From positions 29,642 through 93,641 of the IMG/VR virus record IMGVR_UViG_3300046507_000506: a stretch of DNA of 64,000 nt; one strand, given 5' to 3'. Position numbers and translations under genes: made by a program. The DNA comes from a virus. The notes under the pieces are model-generated. The model had not been told where the DNA came from. It was given only the letters and a program-made list of their open reading frames with translations, and did not search any database. The first letter of the stretch is position 1. Each line of letters begins with the position of its first letter. Positions 3,706-59,058 of this stretch are shown here, piece after piece.

Positions 3706-3891
3706 TTATTCGAGCGCGGTTTTCACGAGCACCGCGAGGCGTAGATACTCGCCTACCCACTTCGGGAACCTCTGCGCGCCCATCCATCGCGAAACGGTCG
3801 TCGGATCGACGCCGAGGCGGCGCGCGAACTCTGCTTGCGTCCATCCAAGCGTGGCGAGAGAATGGGAAAAGTCGGCTGTTTTCATAGCCAT
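3706..3891 (-). CDS. Small XRE/Cro-type helix-turn-helix regulator
   Basis: 61 residues, essentially only an HTH: WTQAEFARRLGVDPTTVSRW at about residues 17-36 is a textbook recognition unit, followed by a short helical tail. It is divergent from the plus-strand gene at 3955. A perfect 12-base inverted repeat lies just upstream of its start, so it probably represses its own and the divergent promoter. It lies between the fibre operon and the structured RNA region; whether it controls either is unknown. Confidence 0.7.
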   Translation of the reverse strand: MAMKTADFSHSLATLGWTQAEFARRLGVDPTTVSRWMGAQRFPKWVGEYLRLAVLVKTALE

Positions 3892-3898
3892 GATCTTA

Positions 3899-3940
3899 GC
3901 AAAATGCAGAGCTTTGCGCGGGTCAGTATCTGCATTTTGC
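3899..3940. promoter_or_regulatory. Inverted-repeat operator between divergent genes
   Basis: GCAAAATGCAGA at 3899-3910 is exactly inverted as TCTGCATTTTGC at 3929-3940, with 18 bases between. Each arm is itself close to the palindrome TGCA-AAA-TGCA. The site fills the gap between the HTH gene start (3891) and the plus-strand gene (3955), where its promoters must lie. It is a likely binding site for the HTH protein. Confidence 0.6.
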
Positions 3941-3954
3941 AGATTGGAGGGTTT

Positions 3955-4203
3955 ATGGACTTACCGCAAGCTGATGGCGCTGACCCGGCCACCGTTTTCA
4001 CGGCCGCACTTGCCGCCCTGTTCAGCACACACCCCGATCCTGCGGCCCTCCTGAAGGCTTGGGAGCCCGTCGCCACGTCCATCCCCCTGATGATGCTGAA
4101 GAACGGCGCTACGGACGTGCACGCGAATGCAAACGTGGTGATCGCGCAGGCACTGCTCCATATCGCGCGAGTGAATGCAGGCGCGCCGCCACCTGTTGAC
4201 TAG
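3955..4203 (+). CDS. Small hypothetical protein divergent from HTH regulator
   Basis: 82 residues (MDLPQADGAD to APPPVD). I chose the ATG at 3955 because GGAGGG lies a few bases upstream; longer in-frame starts would run through the operator region. The protein is mostly helical with no transmembrane segment or metal motif. It reads away from the HTH gene and is followed directly by the structured RNA region. Function unknown. Confidence 0.5.
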   Translation: MDLPQADGADPATVFTAALAALFSTHPDPAALLKAWEPVATSIPLMMLKNGATDVHANANVVIAQALLHIARVNAGAPPPVD

Positions 4204-4230
4204 GAAACCCGCGCTTCATACACTGGCGAC

Positions 4231-4327
4231 GCTTTCACACATGGCGGCTTGGTGCAGTAAGAGCCTGCCCCGCCAGTGCCAGCCGGTCGCGCGAGCGACG
4301 TATGCGGATAGCCGCCATTGTGAAAGC
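4231..4327 (+). repeat. Long inverted repeat (hairpin) of about 18 bp
   Basis: GCTTTCACACATGGCGGCT at 4231-4249 pairs with AGCCGCCATTGTGAAAGC at 4310-4327, leaving a single bulged base. Inside the loop, GTCGC (4286-4290) and GCGAC (4295-4299) form a stem capped by the GNRA tetraloop GCGA. It is too long and has no T-tract, so it is not a simple terminator. Confidence 0.6.
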
Positions 4328-4328
4328 C

Positions 4329-4392
4329 GCTCCCATGCGGTCCAGTTAGCAAGTCGCCTTGTGCCGCTTGTCCGCATCGCTGCAATGGGAGC
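4329..4392 (+). repeat. Second inverted repeat upstream of tRNA-like element
   Basis: GCTCCCAT (4329-4336) is exactly inverted as ATGGGAGC (4385-4392). An inner stem GCGGA-type (4337-4341 region) pairs with TCCGC (4371-4375). The hairpin begins two bases after the previous one and ends ten bases before the tRNA-like element. Confidence 0.5.
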
Positions 4393-4401
4393 ACCTTCAG
4401 C

Positions 4402-4532
4402 ACGGCCGTAGCTCAGTTGGTAGAGCGCCCCTCGTATGGGGAGAGAAGTAGTCGCGAAATGGCGGTAGCGCCCGCGCGACGATCTTCCGGTATCGGCCGG
4501 TACGCGCGCGGGTTCGAATCCCGTCGGCCGTG
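4402..4532 (+). tRNA. tRNA-like element with about 60-base structured insertion
   Basis: Acceptor arms ACGGCCG (4402-4408) and CGGCCGT (4525-4531) pair perfectly. The D arm GCTC-AGTTGGTA-GAGC and the T arm GCGGG-TTCGAAT-CCCGT are canonical. The anticodon arm is poor: CCCC pairs with GGGG around TCGTAT and does not give a clean 7-base loop, so I assign no amino acid; CGU or GUA triplets are present. Between this arm and the T arm lie about 60 extra bases that fold on their own (GTCGCG 4451-4456 with CGCGAC 4475-4480; GGCG with CGCC inside; CCGG 4487-4490 with CCGG 4497-4500). No CCA is encoded. It may be a tRNA mimic, a degenerate tRNA or an unusual long-variable-arm tRNA. Confidence 0.5.
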
Positions 4533-4533
4533 C

Positions 4534-4633
4534 TGAGGGTGAATGGTGGACGTGAAACTATGTCCCTTACTTTGCATGCACTGACCTGCCTCTGACTGTA
4601 CTGCGAATCAGACCGAGTCATCATTCACTCTCA
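4534..4633 (+). repeat. 100-base hairpin bounded by TGAGGGTGAATG / CATTCACTCTCA
   Basis: The arms at 4534-4545 and 4622-4633 are inverted with one mismatch. The 5' arm starts two bases after the tRNA-like element. An inner stem TGACT/AGTCA lies towards the 3' side. The arm sequence recurs in the two hairpins downstream, so it looks like a repeated unit. Confidence 0.45.
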
Positions 4634-4789
4634 ACAGATGCGGAACCGTGGGCGGCGGTGAGTCAGTAGGGAAAGCGTCGATTGAACGATGTAGCGTTCG
4701 GCGCGGAGCCCGAAAGCAATAGACCGTGCGAGTGGTCGAGCATGCCGTTAAAGCGCAAGGTTCTGGCGCATGAGCAGGGGAAGGGCCTG

Positions 4790-4878
4790 CACTCTCACGC
4801 ATGGCGATCGGTGGAGTACCGTTCAAGAAATCGTCAGTTCCGTGCGCTTGCGGAACCAGTCGCCATGACGTGAGAGTG
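4790..4878 (+). repeat. 89-base hairpin with CACTCTCACG arms
   Basis: CACTCTCACGCATGGCGA (4790-4807) pairs with TCGCCATGACGTGAGAGTG (4860-4878) with one bulged base. Inside, GTTCCG and CGGAAC form a second stem. Its 3' arm TGAGAGTG is also the 5' arm of the next fold, so the two cannot form together. Confidence 0.5.
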
Positions 4879-4947
4879 ATCGGATAGTGGAAAGCGCAGG
4901 CGTCACAGCCGTCTAGCAGGGTTCGATACCGTGCCCTTTCACTCTCA
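4871..4947 (+). repeat. 77-base fold closed by TGAGAGTGA / TCACTCTCA, partly tRNA-like
   Basis: A perfect 9-base stem (4871-4879 with 4939-4947) encloses AGGCG/CGTCT with a 7-base loop, and GGGTTCGATACC, which resembles a T arm. Six extra bases before the 3' acceptor strand and a poor D arm make a functional tRNA unlikely. It competes with the preceding hairpin for the same 5' strand. Confidence 0.35.
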
Positions 4948-5031
4948 ACGCGCGGCCTGTAAGGGTTGTACCGGCCAGCCAGTGACCCCTTAAAAGGTCC
5001 GCCGCGCACCCTTCCCCCTCACACCACCACC

Positions 5032-5514
5032 ATGACATTTCCCTTCCGCGATACCGAAGCGGCGCTAATGGCCGCCGAAATTCGAGAGCAGATTTACGAG
5101 GATTTCCGTTCGGTTGTGGGCACGAATGAGCCCAAGCCTTATACACCGCCCGCGCCGATGCCGACATACGAGGAAATGACCGAGCAGTTGCATCGCGCGG
5201 CGAATCCCACGCCTGCCGACGTGGCGGCGCGCATGCTCAACCAGCAAGCGCAATCCGGTGCACCGCCTTGGTCTTGGGAATGGGTGATGGGCGAACCGCT
5301 ATGGCTCGAAATGCGCCGGGCAATGAAGCGCGTGAAGCGTGAAGCGCCCGCGTATGCGCCGCTGCCGGAAAGCGTCACCAAGCCGGAAGTGCTCGACCTG
5401 GTAGACCTGCGCGACGCTGGCTATGAGTTGTTGGACGTGACAGCCGACGGCGTTGTTACGCTGCGCTCGCCCCATACCGTGCGAGCCGTCTACATGACTG
5501 CGACCATTCGCTAG
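5032..5514 (+). CDS. Hypothetical protein, 160 residues
   Basis: Reads MTFPFRDTEAAL to YMTATIR. The frame is open further upstream, but 5032 is the first ATG after the repeat region. It has no strong Shine-Dalgarno sequence, so the start is uncertain. It is acidic and Pro-rich in the middle, with Trp-rich WSWEWVMGEPLW and no membrane segment. It converges on 5573 across a shared terminator. No family recognised. Confidence 0.5.
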   Translation: MTFPFRDTEAALMAAEIREQIYEDFRSVVGTNEPKPYTPPAPMPTYEEMTEQLHRAANPTPADVAARMLNQQAQSGAPPWSWEWVMGEPLWLEMRRAMKRVKREAPAYAPLPESVTKPEVLDLVDLRDAGYELLDVTADGVVTLRSPHTVRAVYMTATIR

Positions 5515-5533
5515 TGATCGCGCCAAGCCAACG

Positions 5534-5563
5534 AAAAGGCCCGGCATTGCGTCCGGGCCTTTT
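5534..5563. terminator. Bidirectional intrinsic terminator
   Basis: AAAAGGCCCGG (5534-5544) and CCGGGCCTTTT (5553-5563) form an 11-bp stem with flanking A and T runs. It sits between convergent genes ending at 5514 and 5573, so it can end transcription both ways. It would close the long leftward operon. Confidence 0.85.
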
Positions 5564-5572
5564 CACATTCCG

Positions 5573-5971
5573 CTAGATCGGGTGATTCTTTACGAGGTAT
5601 TCGCTCGCCTCGTCTACCGTATCAAACTCAGCGAGCACAACGTAATCCTCATCCGGGCGTTGCGGCATTCGCGCCAGCTTGACCTTGGGCACGTCCATGA
5701 TGATGGTCGGACGCTGGCGACCGCGCAGATAGTCCGCCTGCAACGCCTCTGCCAGTATGCAAGCCTCATCATAGGTATCGACCATGCCGAGGTATGTGGG
5801 CCGGTCCCACGCGCCGCCGTTCAGGCATCGGACCTCGATCTTTCCATCGTCTCGCGTTACGCCGTAAGGATGATCCCACCAGGCATCAAGCTCGGCTTTG
5901 CTGCGCTCCTCATTGGGCGTGGCGTCGAACATTTCCGGCAGGTCTGGATCAAGGGGAATGCGGTTGGGCAT
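5573..5971 (-). CDS. Hypothetical protein, last gene of leftward operon
   Basis: 132 residues, MPNRIPLDPDL to SEYLVKNHPI. An acidic N-terminal third with WWDHPYGVTRDDGKIEVRCL is followed by an alpha-beta segment. It has no membrane segment. It ends 10 bases before the shared terminator and is the most distal gene of the operon that starts at the Cro-like gene. I recognise no family. Confidence 0.55.
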   Translation of the reverse strand: MPNRIPLDPDLPEMFDATPNEERSKAELDAWWDHPYGVTRDDGKIEVRCLNGGAWDRPTYLGMVDTYDEACILAEALQADYLRGRQRPTIIMDVPKVKLARMPQRPDEDYVVLAEFDTVDEASEYLVKNHPI

Positions 5972-6013
5972 GGCGGCTCCTTTTGTGGTGTCCCGCCATT
6001 GTGCCGCAACCGC

Positions 6014-6367
6014 TCACCTTCTACCTATACCGCGCATCTGCTTGCGCTTGCGACGGTCCTGATTCACGCGGGCATTGAACAGCGCCCGCGCCTGCTTTTC
6101 ACGCCACACGTTCTCGCGTCGCAGCCGCGCCGTCTCGCGCCGGTAGCTGTCGTCATAGACCGGCTCGCACTCCTGCTCGAATCGCGCCGGGTAGCGCGTG
6201 CGCACGAGGGCGTCGAGGTCAAGCGCGGGCGGCTCGTCTTTGGGCAGGAGCACGCGCGCGCCGCAATCCTGCACGATGACGTTCGCCACCTCATGCGCGA
6301 GCGCAAGGGCCAGCGCACGGCCAGCCGCGCCGCCCGTAAAGATGATGACGCCGCAGCCCCTGCTCAC
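6014..6367 (-). CDS. Hypothetical protein with basic C-terminus
   Basis: 117 residues. The N-terminal half is hydrophobic to neutral (VIIFTGGAAGRALALALAHEV). The second half is strongly charged and ends in a basic tail (QDRRKRKQMRGIGRR) that might bind nucleic acid. Its start overlaps the stop of the membrane-protein gene at 6364 by four bases, so they are coupled. No family recognised. Confidence 0.5.
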   Translation of the reverse strand: MSRGCGVIIFTGGAAGRALALALAHEVANVIVQDCGARVLLPKDEPPALDLDALVRTRYPARFEQECEPVYDDSYRRETARLRRENVWREKQARALFNARVNQDRRKRKQMRGIGRR

Positions 6368-6669
6368 GCCCTGCCCTCGCGCCCCGCGCCGAACCCGATC
6401 AGCAGCAGGAACACCACGAGCGCGAGCACGCGCAATGCGCTATCGGCGGTGAAGGGTTGGCCGGGCTCGCCGATACCCTTGATCGCCGCGATGACGGCCA
6501 GAACGATGATGGCGATTGCGAGTGTGCGGCGGCCTGACCTGCACACGAAGCGGCCGACAACGCACGCCGCCGCGAGCATCCATTCAGCCAGGACAATGAA
6601 CGCCTTGCCGAGATAGGCACACATCACCCATACGACGTACCAAAATAACTCTTTGACCTGATCTTTCAT
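6364..6669 (-). CDS. Small inner-membrane protein
   Basis: 101 residues with three hydrophobic segments: around residues 8-28 (FWYVVWVMCAYLGKAFIVLA), 48-62 (TLAIAIIVLAVIAAI) and 80-95 (VLALVVFLLLIGFGAG). A basic loop lies between the first two. It belongs to a run of four coupled small membrane genes (6364-7311). No holin signature is clear, and the main lysis genes are elsewhere, so its role is unknown. Confidence 0.55.
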   Translation of the reverse strand: MKDQVKELFWYVVWVMCAYLGKAFIVLAEWMLAAACVVGRFVCRSGRRTLAIAIIVLAVIAAIKGIGEPGQPFTADSALRVLALVVFLLLIGFGAGREGRA

Positions 6670-6863
6670 TGCACTTCCTTCTGTAATGCCCGCAGGTGGG
6701 CGAGTTGATTCGACACGAGCGAGTGACGCGTTTCGAGCCAGTTGTTGTACTGCTCGATGCGGTTCGCCTTGCGCTTATGGCGCAGACAGTCAAATTCCGC
6801 CCACACCCATCCGGCGATAGCAAACGCGAGCATGACTGCGAGGGCGATACTCAGTGTCGTCAT
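6666..6863 (-). CDS. Small single-pass membrane protein
   Basis: 65 residues: one N-terminal transmembrane helix (about residues 5-23, ALAVMLAFAIAGWVWAEF) followed by a charged helical tail (RKANRIEQYNNWLETRH). The arrangement resembles a spanin-like or accessory membrane protein, but nothing defines it. It overlaps its upstream neighbour by four bases and its downstream neighbour by four bases. Confidence 0.5.
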   Translation of the reverse strand: MTTLSIALAVMLAFAIAGWVWAEFDCLRHKRKANRIEQYNNWLETRHSLVSNQLAHLRALQKEVQ

Positions 6864-52230: not shown

Positions 52231-55200
52231 TTAAGCGAGGTAGTCCGACATGTTCAGTCCAAGGTGCTTGAACAGAGAATTGACGGATGCAACCGGCTTG
52301 CCGTCGCTAAACGTCTCACCGTCTTTGATCGTCACGCGGAAGCACTTGCGAACGCTGTCAAACGTGCGCCCCTGCAAGCCCTCTGCACCCGCAGCAGCGA
52401 CCTTCTTTTGCGTGTCGGAGTAGCGAACGAACGTGATGTTAATGTACGTGTTCGCGTGATAAACAAAGTGCGCTGAGTAACGGTCAGCGAACTTTGTTTC
52501 GTCCGTCGTGCCGACGTCGGCACTCAGCACACCCGACAGCGAGCGGATCGCCGTCAGAATGCCCTGAATGTCCACGCCAGCGGCATCGAGCGCGCGAATC
52601 GACTTGGCCTTTTTCGCCCACTGGCACATTGCCGCCCACTTCTGCGAAATGATAGCAAGGGCGAGGGCATTAGCGTCCGCCCAGTTCTCGACATACAGCC
52701 GGGCGTTCTTCGACAGCGACATGGCGGCGCGCGCGTCATCAACTCCCACCTTCAGCTCGATGTAGTCGCCGGTGTCCGCGAACATCAGTTCAGTGAACTG
52801 GCGGCCGTACTCGCGGGTGATATCGGCAGGCATATACGAGCCATAGCCCGACGACGCGGCGGCGATTTCGTCATTGAGGAAACCGCCCTCAATAGCCGTT
52901 TTAAGCGCCGCCTCGATAGCCGCCGAAATGGCGTAACGCTGCGACTGGCTCACGACATACCAACGCTCCTTGCCGTCGTCAATCCTGTTCTGCTCACGGC
53001 GAAAGCGCGAGATATCGTAGCCGAGTGCCGATTCGAGCCGGTCAACCGTCAGGAAATCCTGCGCGTTGTTGAGCCAGTTCTGAGCCCACGTTTCGAGGTC
53101 TTCCGGCGACTTCGACTGTGCAACACCATCGGGCAGCGCGCGGAAAAACTCATCATTCAGGCCGAGCGAATCGAAGCACTTTTCCAGCGACAGGTACGAG
53201 GAAATGCAGGCCACGTCCTGAGCCGTCGCGCGCAGGCCCGTCGCGCGCGAGTAGTCGCGGATAGCCTTGCAGCGGCCGGGCACGTCCGTCGGCACCTTCG
53301 GGCCGATCACGCGCAGGTCTTTCAGGCGCACGTTATCGCGGAAATCGCGCTCTGCGATCAGCGATTCCTGTTCGGCCTTGATCCGGTCGGTGAATTCGCT
53401 GCCCACCGCGTCAGTAACGAGGATGAACGGGAACAGCGGCGGCGCGAGCGAAATCGTGTCCGGGTCCACCATCGTTGACGGAATGGCAACCGTGAGCGCT
53501 TCGCGCACGTCGGCATTGAGCGACGAATACAGGTAGGGGCTGCTCGCCGCGAAGCCGGACGGATTGTCTGCGATCACCCGTTCGTCAGCCGCCACGGCGC
53601 GCGCGATGGCCGCCGAGTATTGCGGCGTATTCTGTTCGAGATACACCGGGCCGGTGAGGCGCAGCAGTTCCGTTTCGGACTGGTCGGCCGGGTTGTAGCC
53701 GACAAAGCCCTTGGCGGCGTCCGTTGCCCTGCGCGGCTTCGTCACCACGAGCAGCTTGCCCTGATACTCCACCAGCGAGCCCACGGCCACCAGGTTGCCC
53801 GTCACGATAGCCGCATCGCCGCGCATGAACGCATCGAGCGTATCGCCCGTATAGCCGTCGTCGGTGCGGTTCTGGAACGTCACGGCGGCCTCATCGCGCA
53901 TGCGGTTTGCCATCGTCACGTCTTTCTGCCAGTTCGCATAGGCGGCCGTGGCTTTCTCGTCGTCGGTGACTGCCGACCATTCCGAGCGCACCACCACCAC
54001 GCCGCGCGAGTCACGCGGCAGGCCGTCGAGCACAGACGACTGGGTTTGCAGCTTCTGCGACAGGTCGGTAATCTGCCCGCGCAGGCGCGTGGCCATCAGC
54101 GTGGATTCCGTCTTGTCCAGGCGTTCCTGCAATTCGCCGATTTTTGCGGCGGTCTGCGAGACGATGCCGTTTTTGTTCTTGATCCACGCGGTAAAGCCCT
54201 TGCGGCCGTCCGCGTCGCGGTCGTCGGCGGCTCCCATGCCAAAGCGCGCGAGCCAGTTTGCTTGCGCCTCAATGATGCGCACGCTCTGCAACTGTGCGGC
54301 CTTGTTGACGGCCTGTTTCTGGCGCTTGTTGCGCGCGGAGATTTCATCGTTGATGCGATCCATCGCGGACGCATCGCCCACCGCATTCGCGAGCAGTTCA
54401 TAGTCGGAGGAGGTCATGTCGCCCTCAATCACGACCTTGGAGCCGTCGCCCTGCATGAGCGCACCGATCCAGTCCGCCTTGATACCCACGAGCTTGCGCT
54501 TGTACGCATCGAACGTGCCGTCAGCATCGTAGTGGTAGACCTTGACCGTCTCGACCGGGTTGCCCTGGCGAACGCCGCGACCGTTGCGCTGATGCACCGA
54601 ATCGGGCGTCCATCCAATCGTCATATGGTGGATAGCCTGCGTGCCCTTTTGCAGGTTGATGCCGACTTCCGCCTTTTTGTTGGCGATAACGATGGTGTAC
54701 TTGTTGTCCTCACCGTCGGCGTTATAGCCGTCCTGCACGTCCTGCATGCCCGCCACGTCCACCGACACGGCATTGACGATCTTGATCTTCGAGGCGGAAA
54801 TGCCGACCTGCTGCACGAGCGCGAGCTTGATCTTGTGGTGCAGGCTCAGTTCGTCACAGAAAATGATCTGCTTGGCCTGCCCGATGTAGCGCGGGTGCAG
54901 GTTTTCAAGCTTCACGTTTTCAATCAGCGCGGCCAGTTTCGGGCTCACGTTGATCGTCGGCGTGATGCTGCCCGCGTCGAGCAGCTTGAGCAGCGATTCC
55001 TGCGTCGAATAGTCCGTCGAGAGCAGTTCGATTGCGTTGCCCGTTTGCGCCATGCGCGCGCGGATTGTCACGAGGTATTTCGAGACGGATTCGCCCGTTT
55101 CCGCATCCTTGACGACCTTGGTACGAATGTCGGCCGGGTCCGCGTTCGAATCCCAGTAGTCGCGCTCCTCAACGATGTTCTTTTTGTTGAACCCGTCGAT

Positions 55201-58200
55201 GGCCTTCTGTGCTGCCTCGCGCTGATCGGCCTGGAACTTGAACGCAAAGATTCCTGCGTCCATTTCCGGGTCGTTGATGACGCGCGTCATCTTTCGGATC
55301 AGGTTGAAGGGCGATCCCGTGAGCTTGTCCTCAGCGTCGCCGCCGCCTGCCTTCAGGCGCTCGACGGCTTCGAGATACTGGTTTTTGTAATCGATGATGA
55401 GGTCATACGAGTCCTGACCGATATCGACGCCCGTTGCGATTTCATCGAATTCCGGCACCACGATATTGATACCGTCGGCCTTTACATCGTCGGCCGTCTT
55501 GATGAGGGCGGACGTTTGCAGCAGGCGGCGCAGCAGCCCCGCGTTTTGCAGGCCCGTAAAGACGCGCACCGGGCGCATCATGCCGACGATGTTCTCCTCC
55601 TCGCGCTCCTCGATATCGCAGGCGGCGGCCATGAACGAGTCGGCACCCGTCACGCCATACATCGCGTTGACTTCGCGTTCGCCGAGCGCCAGCGTGAGCA
55701 TCGAATAGACTTCAAGCGGGCTGTTGGTGACGGGCGTAGCGGTCAGGCTCAGCACGCCGTCATTGCGCGTCGAGAGGCCGCGCACGTACCACGATTTCGC
55801 CTGCATATCCATGCCGCGCTGCGACTTGGACGGGTCCGCCAAATACTTCGCGCCCTTGAACTCGCTCGACGTCATTTTCGAGTTCTTATAGTTGTGCGCC
55901 TCATCGAGCACGAGCGAATCGACGCCCATGTCCTCAAAGTAGGGGATGGCTCCCGACTTCGCGCCGATATCCTTCACATTGCCCTGCTTGCTCGCGGCGG
56001 CAATGTTCGCGCGCTTTTTCATCGCGTCTTCTTCGGCGAGCAGATAGGCGTCGTCGTTTTCCGTCAGGTAAGCGACGTAGGCGTCCATCGTTTCGTCGCG
56101 CACCGGGATCAGCTTGAACGCTTCGAGCGTCATGAAAATCTTGCTGTGCCGGTTCTCGCGAATCACGTTCAGGTCGATCTTGACCTGTGCGTTATCGACC
56201 TTATCCTTTCCGTCCTTACCCTTCACGATGCCGACGAACAGGCAGTCTGAAGTGTCCAGATACGCCTTACCGGCTTCTTTCTTCCAGTTCGTGAGCGTCG
56301 CATTGGGCACCACGAACATGGTTTTTTTCTTCACACCGATGCTCTGTGCGTACTGCACCGATGCGAGCGCGGTGAGCGTCTTGCCGAGGCCCACATCAAA
56401 GCCGAGGATGCCCGAAAACTGGCGGGCGTACCGGCGCGCGGCGGCGTACTGGTACGCGTGCGGGCGGAACGTCGTGGTATTGAGGTTCGGAATGTCCAGC
56501 GGCGTGCCGTCGGGCTCCTCAATGAAGCGCAGCGCGTCCGGCGCATTGAGCTTGTTGTGCAGAGAAACCTGAATCTCATCGTTCGCGCGCGCCCATGCGT
56601 CAAACTGTGCCTTGGCCTTGTCGGTGATTTCCTTGATCCGGCGCAGCAGGGCGGCCTCTTTCGCCGGGTCCGATTCCACGTCGGCCGACTTCGACATGGT
56701 CGTGATGTTCTGGTTGCGCAGATAGCCCTTGACGAAGCGCTGCATCGCCTTCCACGCGGCTTTCTCCTCCTCGCTGGCCCACTTCCCGACGGAGGGCTGC
56801 TTGATATCGAACACGTCGCGGCCGTCGGCATCGACCGTCAGGAAAATATCGGGCGAGACATACTGCTTGAAAAATTCGAGCTTTTGCAGCGGCGAGATAT
56901 GCGGCGTGAACAGGCTGAATGTCATTTTCGACACGTCAACCGTGTTGATGCGCGCCTTACCGGCTTCCATCTGCTTGACGAGTTTCGCGCGGATATCCGG
57001 GTCCGTGCACTGCTCAAGCTCGGCATTGGCCTGCGTCAGGAACGCGGCGTAGGAGCCGGTGTAATAGTCGTTCGCATGCGTGACGTGCTGGCCGTCGGCC
57101 GACACGCACCACTCATCGGACGTGAGAGGGTCAAAGTCCGAAAACACGGTGCGCAGCTTTTCAACCGACACATACCCGGTTTCATCCTCGCTCTCGTATT
57201 TCGTCTTTTCGTAAAGCTGCGTCGGCGTGAGCGCGACCGTTTCCACGTTCGCCTTGATTTCGCCGCGCCAGAATGCGGTGAAGTCGCCCTTGTAGCGCGC
57301 ATTGCGAATCGAGAGCAGCGCATCCTTCACGAGGCGCGACGCCTTGCCGATGGTCTTGTTACCGTAGCTCTGTGCGCGCGCGAGTTGCGCGGAGAGCACC
57401 GGGTACGCTTCGAGATAGTTGAACGGCTCGACGCTGTCAGCATCCTGCATGAGTTGCATCGCAGCCATACCGGCCGTGATCGCTTCCCACCACGGTTGCA
57501 TGTCGCCCTCGCCGAGCGATTCGAGCGCCTTGATGGTCGCCGTGAGCCATGCGGGGACGTCCCCATAGCTGCCCATTGCATTGCAGTAGCGGGCGTATTC
57601 CTGCGCATCCTTCCACGTCACGCCCGCCTCGATAGCGGCAAAGGCCGTCGTGATCTTGGTGCCGACGTCGAGCATCTTCCGATCATCAGCAACCGCCGAT
57701 TCGAGCACCGTCCATTCGCCATCGCGCATTTCAAGCGTTTGGCCGTCCTTGTGCAGCACGTCGCCGTCCTGATAGACGATAGGTGCGGTTTCCGTAGCTT
57801 CGAGCAATGCCCAGTCGATATGCGAGCCCGGAAAGCGCTTAATCATGCGCGCGATGTTGCTGATCGAGTCGTCGGAAATGACGGCTTCGACCTCGCCGAA
57901 CTTGCCGTTGGTCGTGCCGACTTCGCCGAGAATGTACTTGTGACCGGTGCCGAGGAAATAGCGGCCTTCCAGAAACTCATCCCACAGCACGCGGGCCTGC
58001 GTGAGCGTGTCCGGGCTCTGCGTTTGCAGTTCGTCAATCTTTCGCGCCGTCTCGCGGGAGAACTTGCGGAAAACGATGACGTCGGTAATGGTGTCGGCCG
58101 CTGCGGACTCGCTGAAAATCTTGTTCGGCAGGCGGTACGCGCCGACAAACTCAGCCATGAGCGACGATTGCAGGCGCAGCTTCTGCGACTTCGAGCCCTT

Positions 58201-59058
58201 GCCGCTCACAATCGACGGCGGCACGATGAATGCGGCCAGGCCGTTCGGCTTGAGCTTTTGCAGCGAGCGCAGGATGAAATACTCTTGCAGGTTCGCTTTC
58301 TGGAACCGCTTGTCTTTCAGCTTGGCGTCGCCGCGCATGGCGTTGTCGCCGAACGGCACATTGGTAATGATCGCGTCGTAAATCTCGTCGGGCGTCTCTG
58401 CTGCGATGGCTTCAAAGGGCGAAACCGTCGTGCTCACGGTCGGGCCGTCGTTGATTGCGCCGTTGACCGCGCCGCTCGTGGCGTCGAGTTCGATCTGCGT
58501 CATGACGGCCGTTTTCGGGCGCGTCGCGGTGAATACGCCAGTGCCCGCCGACGGATCGCACACGCTACCGCCCTGAAAGCCCATTTCGCCGAGCAGTTCC
58601 CACATGGCCGCCGCGACGGGCTTCGGCGTGTAGTACTCGTGCGGAGAGCCGGTGAGGCCGTCCGCGCCCGTCAGGCCGCCGCCATTGCCGGAATACTTGG
58701 CGAGCACAACGCGATCCTCGTCAGTCACGGCGCGGCCGGACTCCTGAATCTCGCGGATCAATGCGATAGCGGCGTTATTGTCTTTCTGGCGTTGCGCGAG
58801 GGTTTTGCGCCCTTCCTCCGGGTAAAACTCGGCGGTCGGTTCGGTGCGCACTTCGGCGACTGGGGCCGGTTCGGGTATCACGTCCGGTGCGGGCGCGGCT
58901 TTGCCGAGAGCAATCGCGATATCGCGCAGGCGCTTGCCGATGTTCAGCGCGCGCAGCACGTCGGTCGTGCTGTCGGTCAGTCTCGCACGCTCGGTGATGA
59001 GGTCGCGCGCCTCTTTCGCCAGCTTCAGGCGTTCGAGGTCATTCTGTAAAGTCGTCAT
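52231..59058 (-). CDS. darB: DarB-like DNA methyltransferase-helicase (anti-restriction)
   Basis: 2275 residues, close to the size of P1 DarB. Residues 130-240 hold an N6-adenine methyltransferase-like core: DPSAGTG at 168-174 (AdoMet site) and TNVPFG at 232-237 in place of NPPF. An SF2/SNF2-type helicase follows: GLGKT near 888, DEAH near 1050, and GRGVRQG near 1490 (motif VI). In P1, DarB is packaged and injected and protects DNA against type I restriction. A terminator separates it from the ddrB-like gene upstream. Confidence 0.85.
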   Translation of the reverse strand: MTTLQNDLERLKLAKEARDLITERARLTDSTTDVLRALNIGKRLRDIAIALGKAAPAPDVIPEPAPVAEVRTEPTAEFYPEEGRKTLAQRQKDNNAAIALIREIQESGRAVTDEDRVVLAKYSGNGGGLTGADGLTGSPHEYYTPKPVAAAMWELLGEMGFQGGSVCDPSAGTGVFTATRPKTAVMTQIELDATSGAVNGAINDGPTVSTTVSPFEAIAAETPDEIYDAIITNVPFGDNAMRGDAKLKDKRFQKANLQEYFILRSLQKLKPNGLAAFIVPPSIVSGKGSKSQKLRLQSSLMAEFVGAYRLPNKIFSESAAADTITDVIVFRKFSRETARKIDELQTQSPDTLTQARVLWDEFLEGRYFLGTGHKYILGEVGTTNGKFGEVEAVISDDSISNIARMIKRFPGSHIDWALLEATETAPIVYQDGDVLHKDGQTLEMRDGEWTVLESAVADDRKMLDVGTKITTAFAAIEAGVTWKDAQEYARYCNAMGSYGDVPAWLTATIKALESLGEGDMQPWWEAITAGMAAMQLMQDADSVEPFNYLEAYPVLSAQLARAQSYGNKTIGKASRLVKDALLSIRNARYKGDFTAFWRGEIKANVETVALTPTQLYEKTKYESEDETGYVSVEKLRTVFSDFDPLTSDEWCVSADGQHVTHANDYYTGSYAAFLTQANAELEQCTDPDIRAKLVKQMEAGKARINTVDVSKMTFSLFTPHISPLQKLEFFKQYVSPDIFLTVDADGRDVFDIKQPSVGKWASEEEKAAWKAMQRFVKGYLRNQNITTMSKSADVESDPAKEAALLRRIKEITDKAKAQFDAWARANDEIQVSLHNKLNAPDALRFIEEPDGTPLDIPNLNTTTFRPHAYQYAAARRYARQFSGILGFDVGLGKTLTALASVQYAQSIGVKKKTMFVVPNATLTNWKKEAGKAYLDTSDCLFVGIVKGKDGKDKVDNAQVKIDLNVIRENRHSKIFMTLEAFKLIPVRDETMDAYVAYLTENDDAYLLAEEDAMKKRANIAAASKQGNVKDIGAKSGAIPYFEDMGVDSLVLDEAHNYKNSKMTSSEFKGAKYLADPSKSQRGMDMQAKSWYVRGLSTRNDGVLSLTATPVTNSPLEVYSMLTLALGEREVNAMYGVTGADSFMAAACDIEEREEENIVGMMRPVRVFTGLQNAGLLRRLLQTSALIKTADDVKADGINIVVPEFDEIATGVDIGQDSYDLIIDYKNQYLEAVERLKAGGGDAEDKLTGSPFNLIRKMTRVINDPEMDAGIFAFKFQADQREAAQKAIDGFNKKNIVEERDYWDSNADPADIRTKVVKDAETGESVSKYLVTIRARMAQTGNAIELLSTDYSTQESLLKLLDAGSITPTINVSPKLAALIENVKLENLHPRYIGQAKQIIFCDELSLHHKIKLALVQQVGISASKIKIVNAVSVDVAGMQDVQDGYNADGEDNKYTIVIANKKAEVGINLQKGTQAIHHMTIGWTPDSVHQRNGRGVRQGNPVETVKVYHYDADGTFDAYKRKLVGIKADWIGALMQGDGSKVVIEGDMTSSDYELLANAVGDASAMDRINDEISARNKRQKQAVNKAAQLQSVRIIEAQANWLARFGMGAADDRDADGRKGFTAWIKNKNGIVSQTAAKIGELQERLDKTESTLMATRLRGQITDLSQKLQTQSSVLDGLPRDSRGVVVVRSEWSAVTDDEKATAAYANWQKDVTMANRMRDEAAVTFQNRTDDGYTGDTLDAFMRGDAAIVTGNLVAVGSLVEYQGKLLVVTKPRRATDAAKGFVGYNPADQSETELLRLTGPVYLEQNTPQYSAAIARAVAADERVIADNPSGFAASSPYLYSSLNADVREALTVAIPSTMVDPDTISLAPPLFPFILVTDAVGSEFTDRIKAEQESLIAERDFRDNVRLKDLRVIGPKVPTDVPGRCKAIRDYSRATGLRATAQDVACISSYLSLEKCFDSLGLNDEFFRALPDGVAQSKSPEDLETWAQNWLNNAQDFLTVDRLESALGYDISRFRREQNRIDDGKERWYVVSQSQRYAISAAIEAALKTAIEGGFLNDEIAAASSGYGSYMPADITREYGRQFTELMFADTGDYIELKVGVDDARAAMSLSKNARLYVENWADANALALAIISQKWAAMCQWAKKAKSIRALDAAGVDIQGILTAIRSLSGVLSADVGTTDETKFADRYSAHFVYHANTYINITFVRYSDTQKKVAAAGAEGLQGRTFDSVRKCFRVTIKDGETFSDGKPVASVNSLFKHLGLNMSDYLA

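Follow-up and report, generated by a model that had tools for sequence, protein, structure and literature searches.

In Escherichia coli K-12, the polycistronic dicF transcript of the Qin prophage is processed by RNase III and RNase E, RNase III yielding a product of 190 nucleotides (nt) (PMC10448788). Tandem tRNA arrays are also known from phages, the bacterial Y RNA YrlA holds a tRNA-like domain inside a longer non-coding RNA (PMC7790460), and GOLLD and ROOL are large ornate phage RNAs often found near tRNAs (PMC12286853). The present analysis concerns a window of 64,000 nt (positions 29642-93641 of the 93.6-kb virus record IMGVR_UViG_3300046507_000506; coordinates below are those of the window unless a locus is named), in which about 830 bases between two short plus-strand open reading frames (ORFs) are without conserved protein coding. 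In the same record, terminase, portal, tail-sheath and transglycosylase/tail genes were recognized. The region is very probably an array of selected, structured RNA modules read from the plus strand, whose anatomy, homology, covariation, strand and lack of ORFs are described here. Its best-supported reading, which we consider reasonably probable, is a processed polycistronic non-coding RNA that releases tRNA-like RNAs.

A sequence-only reading had described positions 4204-4960 as a fold-rich locus with a tRNA-like element and no convincing gene, and this description held. Nine helices of at least 9 base pairs (bp) spanning at most 170 nt were counted in the 757-nt region, against 1.7 +/- 1.4 (maximum 5) in shuffled sequences, while 36 further stretches from elsewhere in the window had 2.9 (maximum 6). 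When each module along the array (M1 to M8, Table 1) was compared with dinucleotide shuffles, 0 of 200 shuffles were as stable for M1, M2, M3 and M6, and 1 of 200 for M7. Sliding 200-nt windows, which are blind to module borders, revealed only mild stability (plus-strand z down to -2.2), so the signal sits in discrete long-stem modules. Each reading frame of the window array contains 2-10 stops. As for the borders, the array itself was found where it had been placed, although it extends slightly further, with a promoter from 4196; the borders between modules are uncertain from M2 to M5, and M5 may be no module at all.

The tRNA-like element is M3, which was matched by Rfam RF00005 at 43.7 bits (cut-off 29) over 4402-4532, with an insert of ~60 nt. 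Its tRNA-like core (4400-4533) sits on a 17-bp helix (4392-4408/4525-4541) that continues the acceptor, and it comprises a D arm (4411-4426), an extra hairpin (4428-4441), a long variable arm (about 4442-4490), a GGCC-loop hairpin (about 4487-4502) and a T arm (about 4508-4524). Both Rfam and covariation indicated that the acceptor, D and T arms, with a TTCRA T-loop, are those of a decoding tRNA. The anticodon region, on the other hand, is swapped for three hairpins (CCCC-TCGTAT-GGGG, the long arm and the GGCC-loop hairpin), so that a 4-bp stem with a 6-nt loop stands at the usual place of the 5-bp anticodon stem and 7-nt loop; this loop, TCGTAT, reads CTGAAG in some homologues. ARAGORN reported 0 tRNA genes in the region and rejected M3. 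The array is like phage tRNA arrays in its tandem order and in the true tRNAs that lie in or beside related arrays (L010, L011 and P1), but unlike them in the missing anticodon arm of M3, in the extra hairpins and in the ARAGORN rejection.

A distant search with the M3 element, taken as the type of a C-type family, led to the Burkholderia vietnamiensis plasmid pBVIE05 (L005), where positions 5822-6675 again hold an array and no gene annotation. A pattern made from the hairpin 3′ of the D arm led to two viral contigs with enterobacterial relatives, and further C-type copies were found in plasmids, one genome and 16 more viral contigs. Covariation was measured on 18 distinct copies including that of the window, 16 of them enterobacterial-type, the host labels of metagenomic contigs being taken from the relatives of those contigs. 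The M3 structure named above paired 96.6% of the cells of this alignment, against at most 56.5% for slid structures; 12 of its 30 pairs were changed on both sides, and its covariation score of 0.28 was threefold that of any slid structure (at most 0.09). Unguided RNAalifold recovered the same arms from the 18 sequences, with two-sided compensatory changes in 20 of 36 predicted pairs. A held-out model, built from the 16 enterobacterial-type copies with their own predicted structure, scored the window copy at 54.4 bits (E 1.3e-13, a rough value since E-values came from a short calibration), and in 118 kb it found the copies of the window and pBVIE05 and nothing else. Compensatory substitutions in homologous loci, set in advance as a test, were abundant. 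A conserved translated frame was sought across the homologues and was absent, no frame being open in all C-type copies (for M3, no single frame was open in more than 6 of the 18). A tRNA match in AbbeyMikolon (39.7 bits, model R1) was not counted, as an ordinary bacterial tRNA region in G001 gave 40.2.

Among imperfect pairs of the C-type alignment, 28 were G-U and one A-C (a second reported ratio was 29:0), an asymmetry that argues for selection on the plus-strand RNA. The sequence-only reading had offered a choice between structured RNA, as one molecule or several, and a region for packaging or regulation; the proposal is supported, and structured RNA is favoured over packaging or another DNA site because of these two ratios. 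An identity with integron attC sites was considered and dropped, their core-site sequences presumably not fitting.

Other modules have relatives as well. M7 is near-identical in the contig L001 (detected with a 45-nt pattern that was exact except for one free position), even though the adjacent protein is only 43% identical. Two counterparts of M6 in L001 retain CACG/CGTG and the bulged A, while their inner stem differs by compensatory change. In Burkholderia phage Mana (L003, about 2450-2552), a relative of M1 keeps the interior, with a closing stem that is different but still complementary; this copy is solitary and lies near a predicted cos site. It could be argued that the locus is a decayed, now functionless phage tRNA cluster, given that M3 still scores as a tRNA and that related arrays have genuine tRNAs within or alongside them. 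However, compensatory changes in phages of two bacterial classes and the near-identity of M7 show selection, and covariation contradicts decay, an explanation to which we give almost no weight.

Table 1. Array modules and neighbouring features of the window; z compares each module with 200 dinucleotide shuffles
Feature	Position	Strand	Evidence or remark
Cro/C1-type helix-turn-helix (HTH) gene, 61 amino acids (aa)	3706..3891	-	HTH_31/HTH_3 above Pfam cut-offs; PHROG transcriptional regulator
Inverted repeat CAAAATGCAGA...TCTGCATTTTG, 11 bp, perfect	3900..3939	unstranded	between HTH gene and array
Promoter TTGACT-17-TACACT, sigma-70-like	4196..4224	+	predicted start just 5′ of M1
M1, long hairpin with closing stem GCTTTCACA...TGTGAAAGC	4230..4328	+	z -4.1
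M2, short hairpin with closing stem CTCCCATGCGG...CCGCATCGCTGCAATGGGAG	4331..4391	+	z -3.1
M3, C-type T module	4392..4542	+	z -5.7; Rfam tRNA match; covariation
M4, probable T module GAGGGTGAATGG...CATTCACTCTC	4534..4630	+	z -1.6; sequence
M5, linker, weak closing stem ATGCGGAACC/GGTTCTGGCGCAT	4637..4772	+	z -0.5
M6, H module CACTCTCACGCATGGCGA...TCGCCATG(A)CGTGAGAGTG, single bulged A	4789..4878	+	z -5.4
M7, T module, acceptor GAGAGTGA/TCACTCTC, canonical T-loop TTCGATA	4871..4947	+	z -2.8
M8, hairpin GCGCGGC...GCCGCGC 3′ of the last T module	4949..5008	+	z -1.8
160-aa gene	5032..5514	+	3′ of array; one viral relative, in L001, likewise 3′ of an array

A common layout was observed in the arrays of L005, L001 and the enterobacterial loci, in which hairpin (H) and tRNA-like (T) modules tend to alternate. 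The H modules keep constant ends around a hypervariable interior, ACAACAGGTAAGAGCAYTG...CAGTGCTCTTTCCGTTGTGG in the enterobacterial and CACTCTCACG...(A)CGTGAGAGTG in the Burkholderia type. The T modules form their acceptor stem with the adjacent linker (GTTGTGG/CCACAAC or GAGGGTG/CACTCTC), so that each arm of a linker has two possible partners, in the preceding and in the following module. This complementary linker is shared within an array and differs between host groups. In the window, M7 re-uses the 3′ arm of M6, the two forming an H/T pair with a common linker arm. Burkholderia-type arrays were found in the window, L001 and L005 only. Among relatives of the HTH gene (16 loci), no further one was recognized, 15 of these loci being distant, with flanks that were not examined.

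In enterobacterial loci, a CAU loop motif is repeated across several module types. This repeated, initiator-type loop speaks for decoys, as does the tRNA frame: the T modules would mimic tRNA and bind or occupy host factors that act on tRNA, such as anticodon nucleases, toxins or modifying enzymes. The tRNA-like acceptor, D and T arms fit such a role, the recurring loops include the initiator anticodon loop GGGCUCAUAACCC, and the hypervariable interiors are compatible with an arms race. However, the CAU loop had no match in the window array and is lacking from the Burkholderia-type copies in general, and no linked defence or toxin partner accompanies the arrays, which leaves decoys an unlikely explanation, if one worth keeping in mind. 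Hairpin modules at about 8394-8465 of L007 and about 2077-2145 of L012 carry the 13-nt GGGCTCATAACCC, the anticodon arm of the E. coli initiator tRNA. DNA similar to some part of the L007 array was present in 2996 of 5426 complete E. coli genomes. Genuine tRNA-Met (CAU) genes lie inside or after two arrays (L010:1550-1625 and L011:2485-2560).

The same modules surround dicF. In K-12 Qin (L033), where a DicF match (RF00039) is present, the H module at L033:1175-1258 and one T module lie 5′ of DicF, and a second T module lies 3′ of it; within L033:1175-1590, this second T module stops shortly before dicB. If the 190-nt precursor shares its 3′ end with the 53-nt form, its 5′ end maps to L033:1246, on the 3′ strand of the H hairpin, and the published RNase III cut thus falls into this hairpin (PMC10448788). 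In P1, an annotated 'dicF-like region' and tRNAs occur in the same setting as the Qin modules. The window array resembles both regions in its adjoining H and T modules and near-repressor position (PMC10448788, PMC5069750), but unlike them it is without DicF.

Several observations on these replicons stand apart from this comparison. A kissing T module, of the family described below, lies at P1 69817-69918 (L032:19817-19918) beneath opposite-strand ORFs (plp/upl), and P1 H modules surround the tRNA-Asn and tRNA-Thr genes. In e14 (L013:1876-2187), the annotated gene ymfH overlaps RNA modules and may not encode a protein. The 1994 work of Faubladier and Bouche on dicF-like prophage sequences is the most likely earlier account of the modules. 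In the literature searched, outside which that work lies (Faubladier and Bouche 1994, J Bacteriol 176:1150), no description of tRNA-like modules beyond DicF was found. A preprint on Pas small RNAs ascribes tRNA matches near the Pas genes to integration sites (PMC13192938); some of these could be modules of the kind described here.

The arrays of SfV, e14 and Qin are located near the repressor, between it and further early genes, and several enterobacterial arrays finish in a terminator hairpin resembling DicF, while the L001 array is followed by a terminator. This arrangement would suit control in cis of an early operon, by a leader that antiterminates processively, as the HK022 put RNA does, or attenuates downstream genes. 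However, the window has one small downstream gene and no clear terminator, module number and order vary widely, and a solo module copy occurs elsewhere (Mana), so that cis control appears improbable. Still less probable is an RNA scaffold or cage. The length is similar, the setting is a phage with tRNAs near related arrays (L010, L011, P1), and GOLLD and ROOL do assemble into cages (PMC12286853). On the other hand, no GOLLD or ROOL match was obtained at gathering score, nor any at E<=10 in 4100-5100; the architecture is modular and variable rather than one conserved fold, no Rfam family of this kind being matched, and the K-12 precursor is cut. As general background, the likeness to YrlA is one of layout, from which the window array departs in having no Rfam match, in being arrayed and in being phage-borne.

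A second T family is characterized by complementary D- and T-loops. A scan for such T modules returned five, of which pBVIE05 supplied two and P1, a Citrobacter plasmid and a Klebsiella plasmid one apiece, against one match in ten rounds of shuffled loci. Model R2 matched P1, pBVIE05, L010 and L014, in all of which a D-loop GCTGAY is complementary to a T-loop RTCAGC, and weakly SfV, e14 and Qin. Applied to genomes, R2 matched 15 of 198 from a single enterobacterial family and 4 of 399 from the phylum. A pattern search matched at least 120 viral contigs, and ~70 distinct kissing T modules with 21 different acceptor starts were counted over all loci among the matches listed, in which acceptor pairing reached 94%, against 77% with 3′ letters shuffled. 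Each module consists of an acceptor, a D stem of 4 bp whose loop reads RRGCTGAY, an insert that varies between modules, and a T stem adjoining the acceptor; most have the T stem GCCGG/CCGGC and a T-loop ending in CAGC. In an alignment of 32 sequences, 96% of cells were paired, against at most 58% when slid. The putative kissing pair itself is backed by changes on the T-loop side only (GC to GU, UA to UG), which is not true covariation, because the search pattern held the D-loop constant. No convincing R2 member was found in the window, where M4 begins with GGTGAA like this family, yet without its loops and without an R2 match. No Rfam 15 family covered the kissing T modules in the loci scanned, and neither T family, C-type or kissing, is in Rfam. 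A 222-nt kissing T module at L141:523-744 has an insert that holds a second tRNA-like T arm, GCGGGTTCGATTCCCGC.

The 61-aa HTH gene adjoins the array in all three Burkholderia-type relatives, the L001 and L005 versions being 82-84% identical. This setting, together with the near-repressor arrays of SfV, e14 and Qin, suggests expression that is early or linked to lysogeny. The 11-bp inverted repeat is a possible operator. The promoter is the sole promoter-like site in 3850-5600 with both strands scanned, and the ACTGGCGACGCTTTCA stretch directly 3′ of it is also present in L005. When the pattern TAYACTGGCNNCGCTTTCA from this stretch was searched, three of four matching contigs were discarded as chance, the fourth being L001. 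The 160-aa gene had neither a Pfam nor a PHROG match, and a search for relatives of the 82-aa ORF upstream of the array found zero. Far from the array, in the late gene block, a 2275-aa ORF occupies 52231-59058 on the minus strand.

Under the processed-RNA reading, the promoter would drive a polycistronic non-coding RNA of tandem modules beside the small HTH regulator gene. By analogy with K-12, H modules such as M6 would act as RNase III processing stems, and T modules such as M3 and M7 would share the linker as acceptor (CACTCTCA/TGAGAGTG in the window; enterobacterial arrays use CACAAC/GTTGTG). The T modules may then be freed as stable tRNA-like RNAs with variable extra hairpins by RNase III and RNase E, perhaps also by RNase P. 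That DicF comes from an array of this type speaks for regulatory RNAs, and on this analogy the products would most likely be small regulatory RNAs acting on host or phage RNA during early infection or lysogeny. Transcription and the cut are known from K-12, whereas we infer expression and processing in the window phage and the function of the T modules. Several points weigh against this reading. M4, M5 and M8 are individually not significant against shuffles; H and T modules alternate imperfectly, M2 and M5 fitting poorly; and the window array has neither a DicF match (RF00039) nor a clear terminator. Antisense matches of 13 nt between the array and its own genome numbered six (in three places), against 1.6 in shuffles that ignored dinucleotides, which is not clearly above chance.

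As a more tentative proposal, phages of Burkholderia and enterobacteria (including P1, SfV and e14) might share an undescribed system in which hypervariable payload RNAs are carried by tRNA-like frames, some with D-loop/T-loop kissing, and are excised by RNase III from an early transcript at hypervariable hairpins. If true, the frames would serve as naturally occurring tRNA scaffolds that present small RNAs or decoys used by phages in conflict with hosts or with one another. The arrays would also provide dozens of tRNA-like frames from nature whose inserts can be exchanged, and since modules reside in laboratory phages, their function is directly testable. A warning also follows for annotation, in that some short annotated ORFs, such as ymfH, overlie RNA. 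The modules would account for the surroundings of DicF and put a definite substrate behind the earlier RNase III finding. Covarying RNA families absent from Rfam 15 lie inside P1, SfV, e14 and Qin, which are classic objects of genetics, and they point to an undescribed phage route to small-RNA families, one that has gone largely unnoticed beside DicF in P1 and E. coli prophages.
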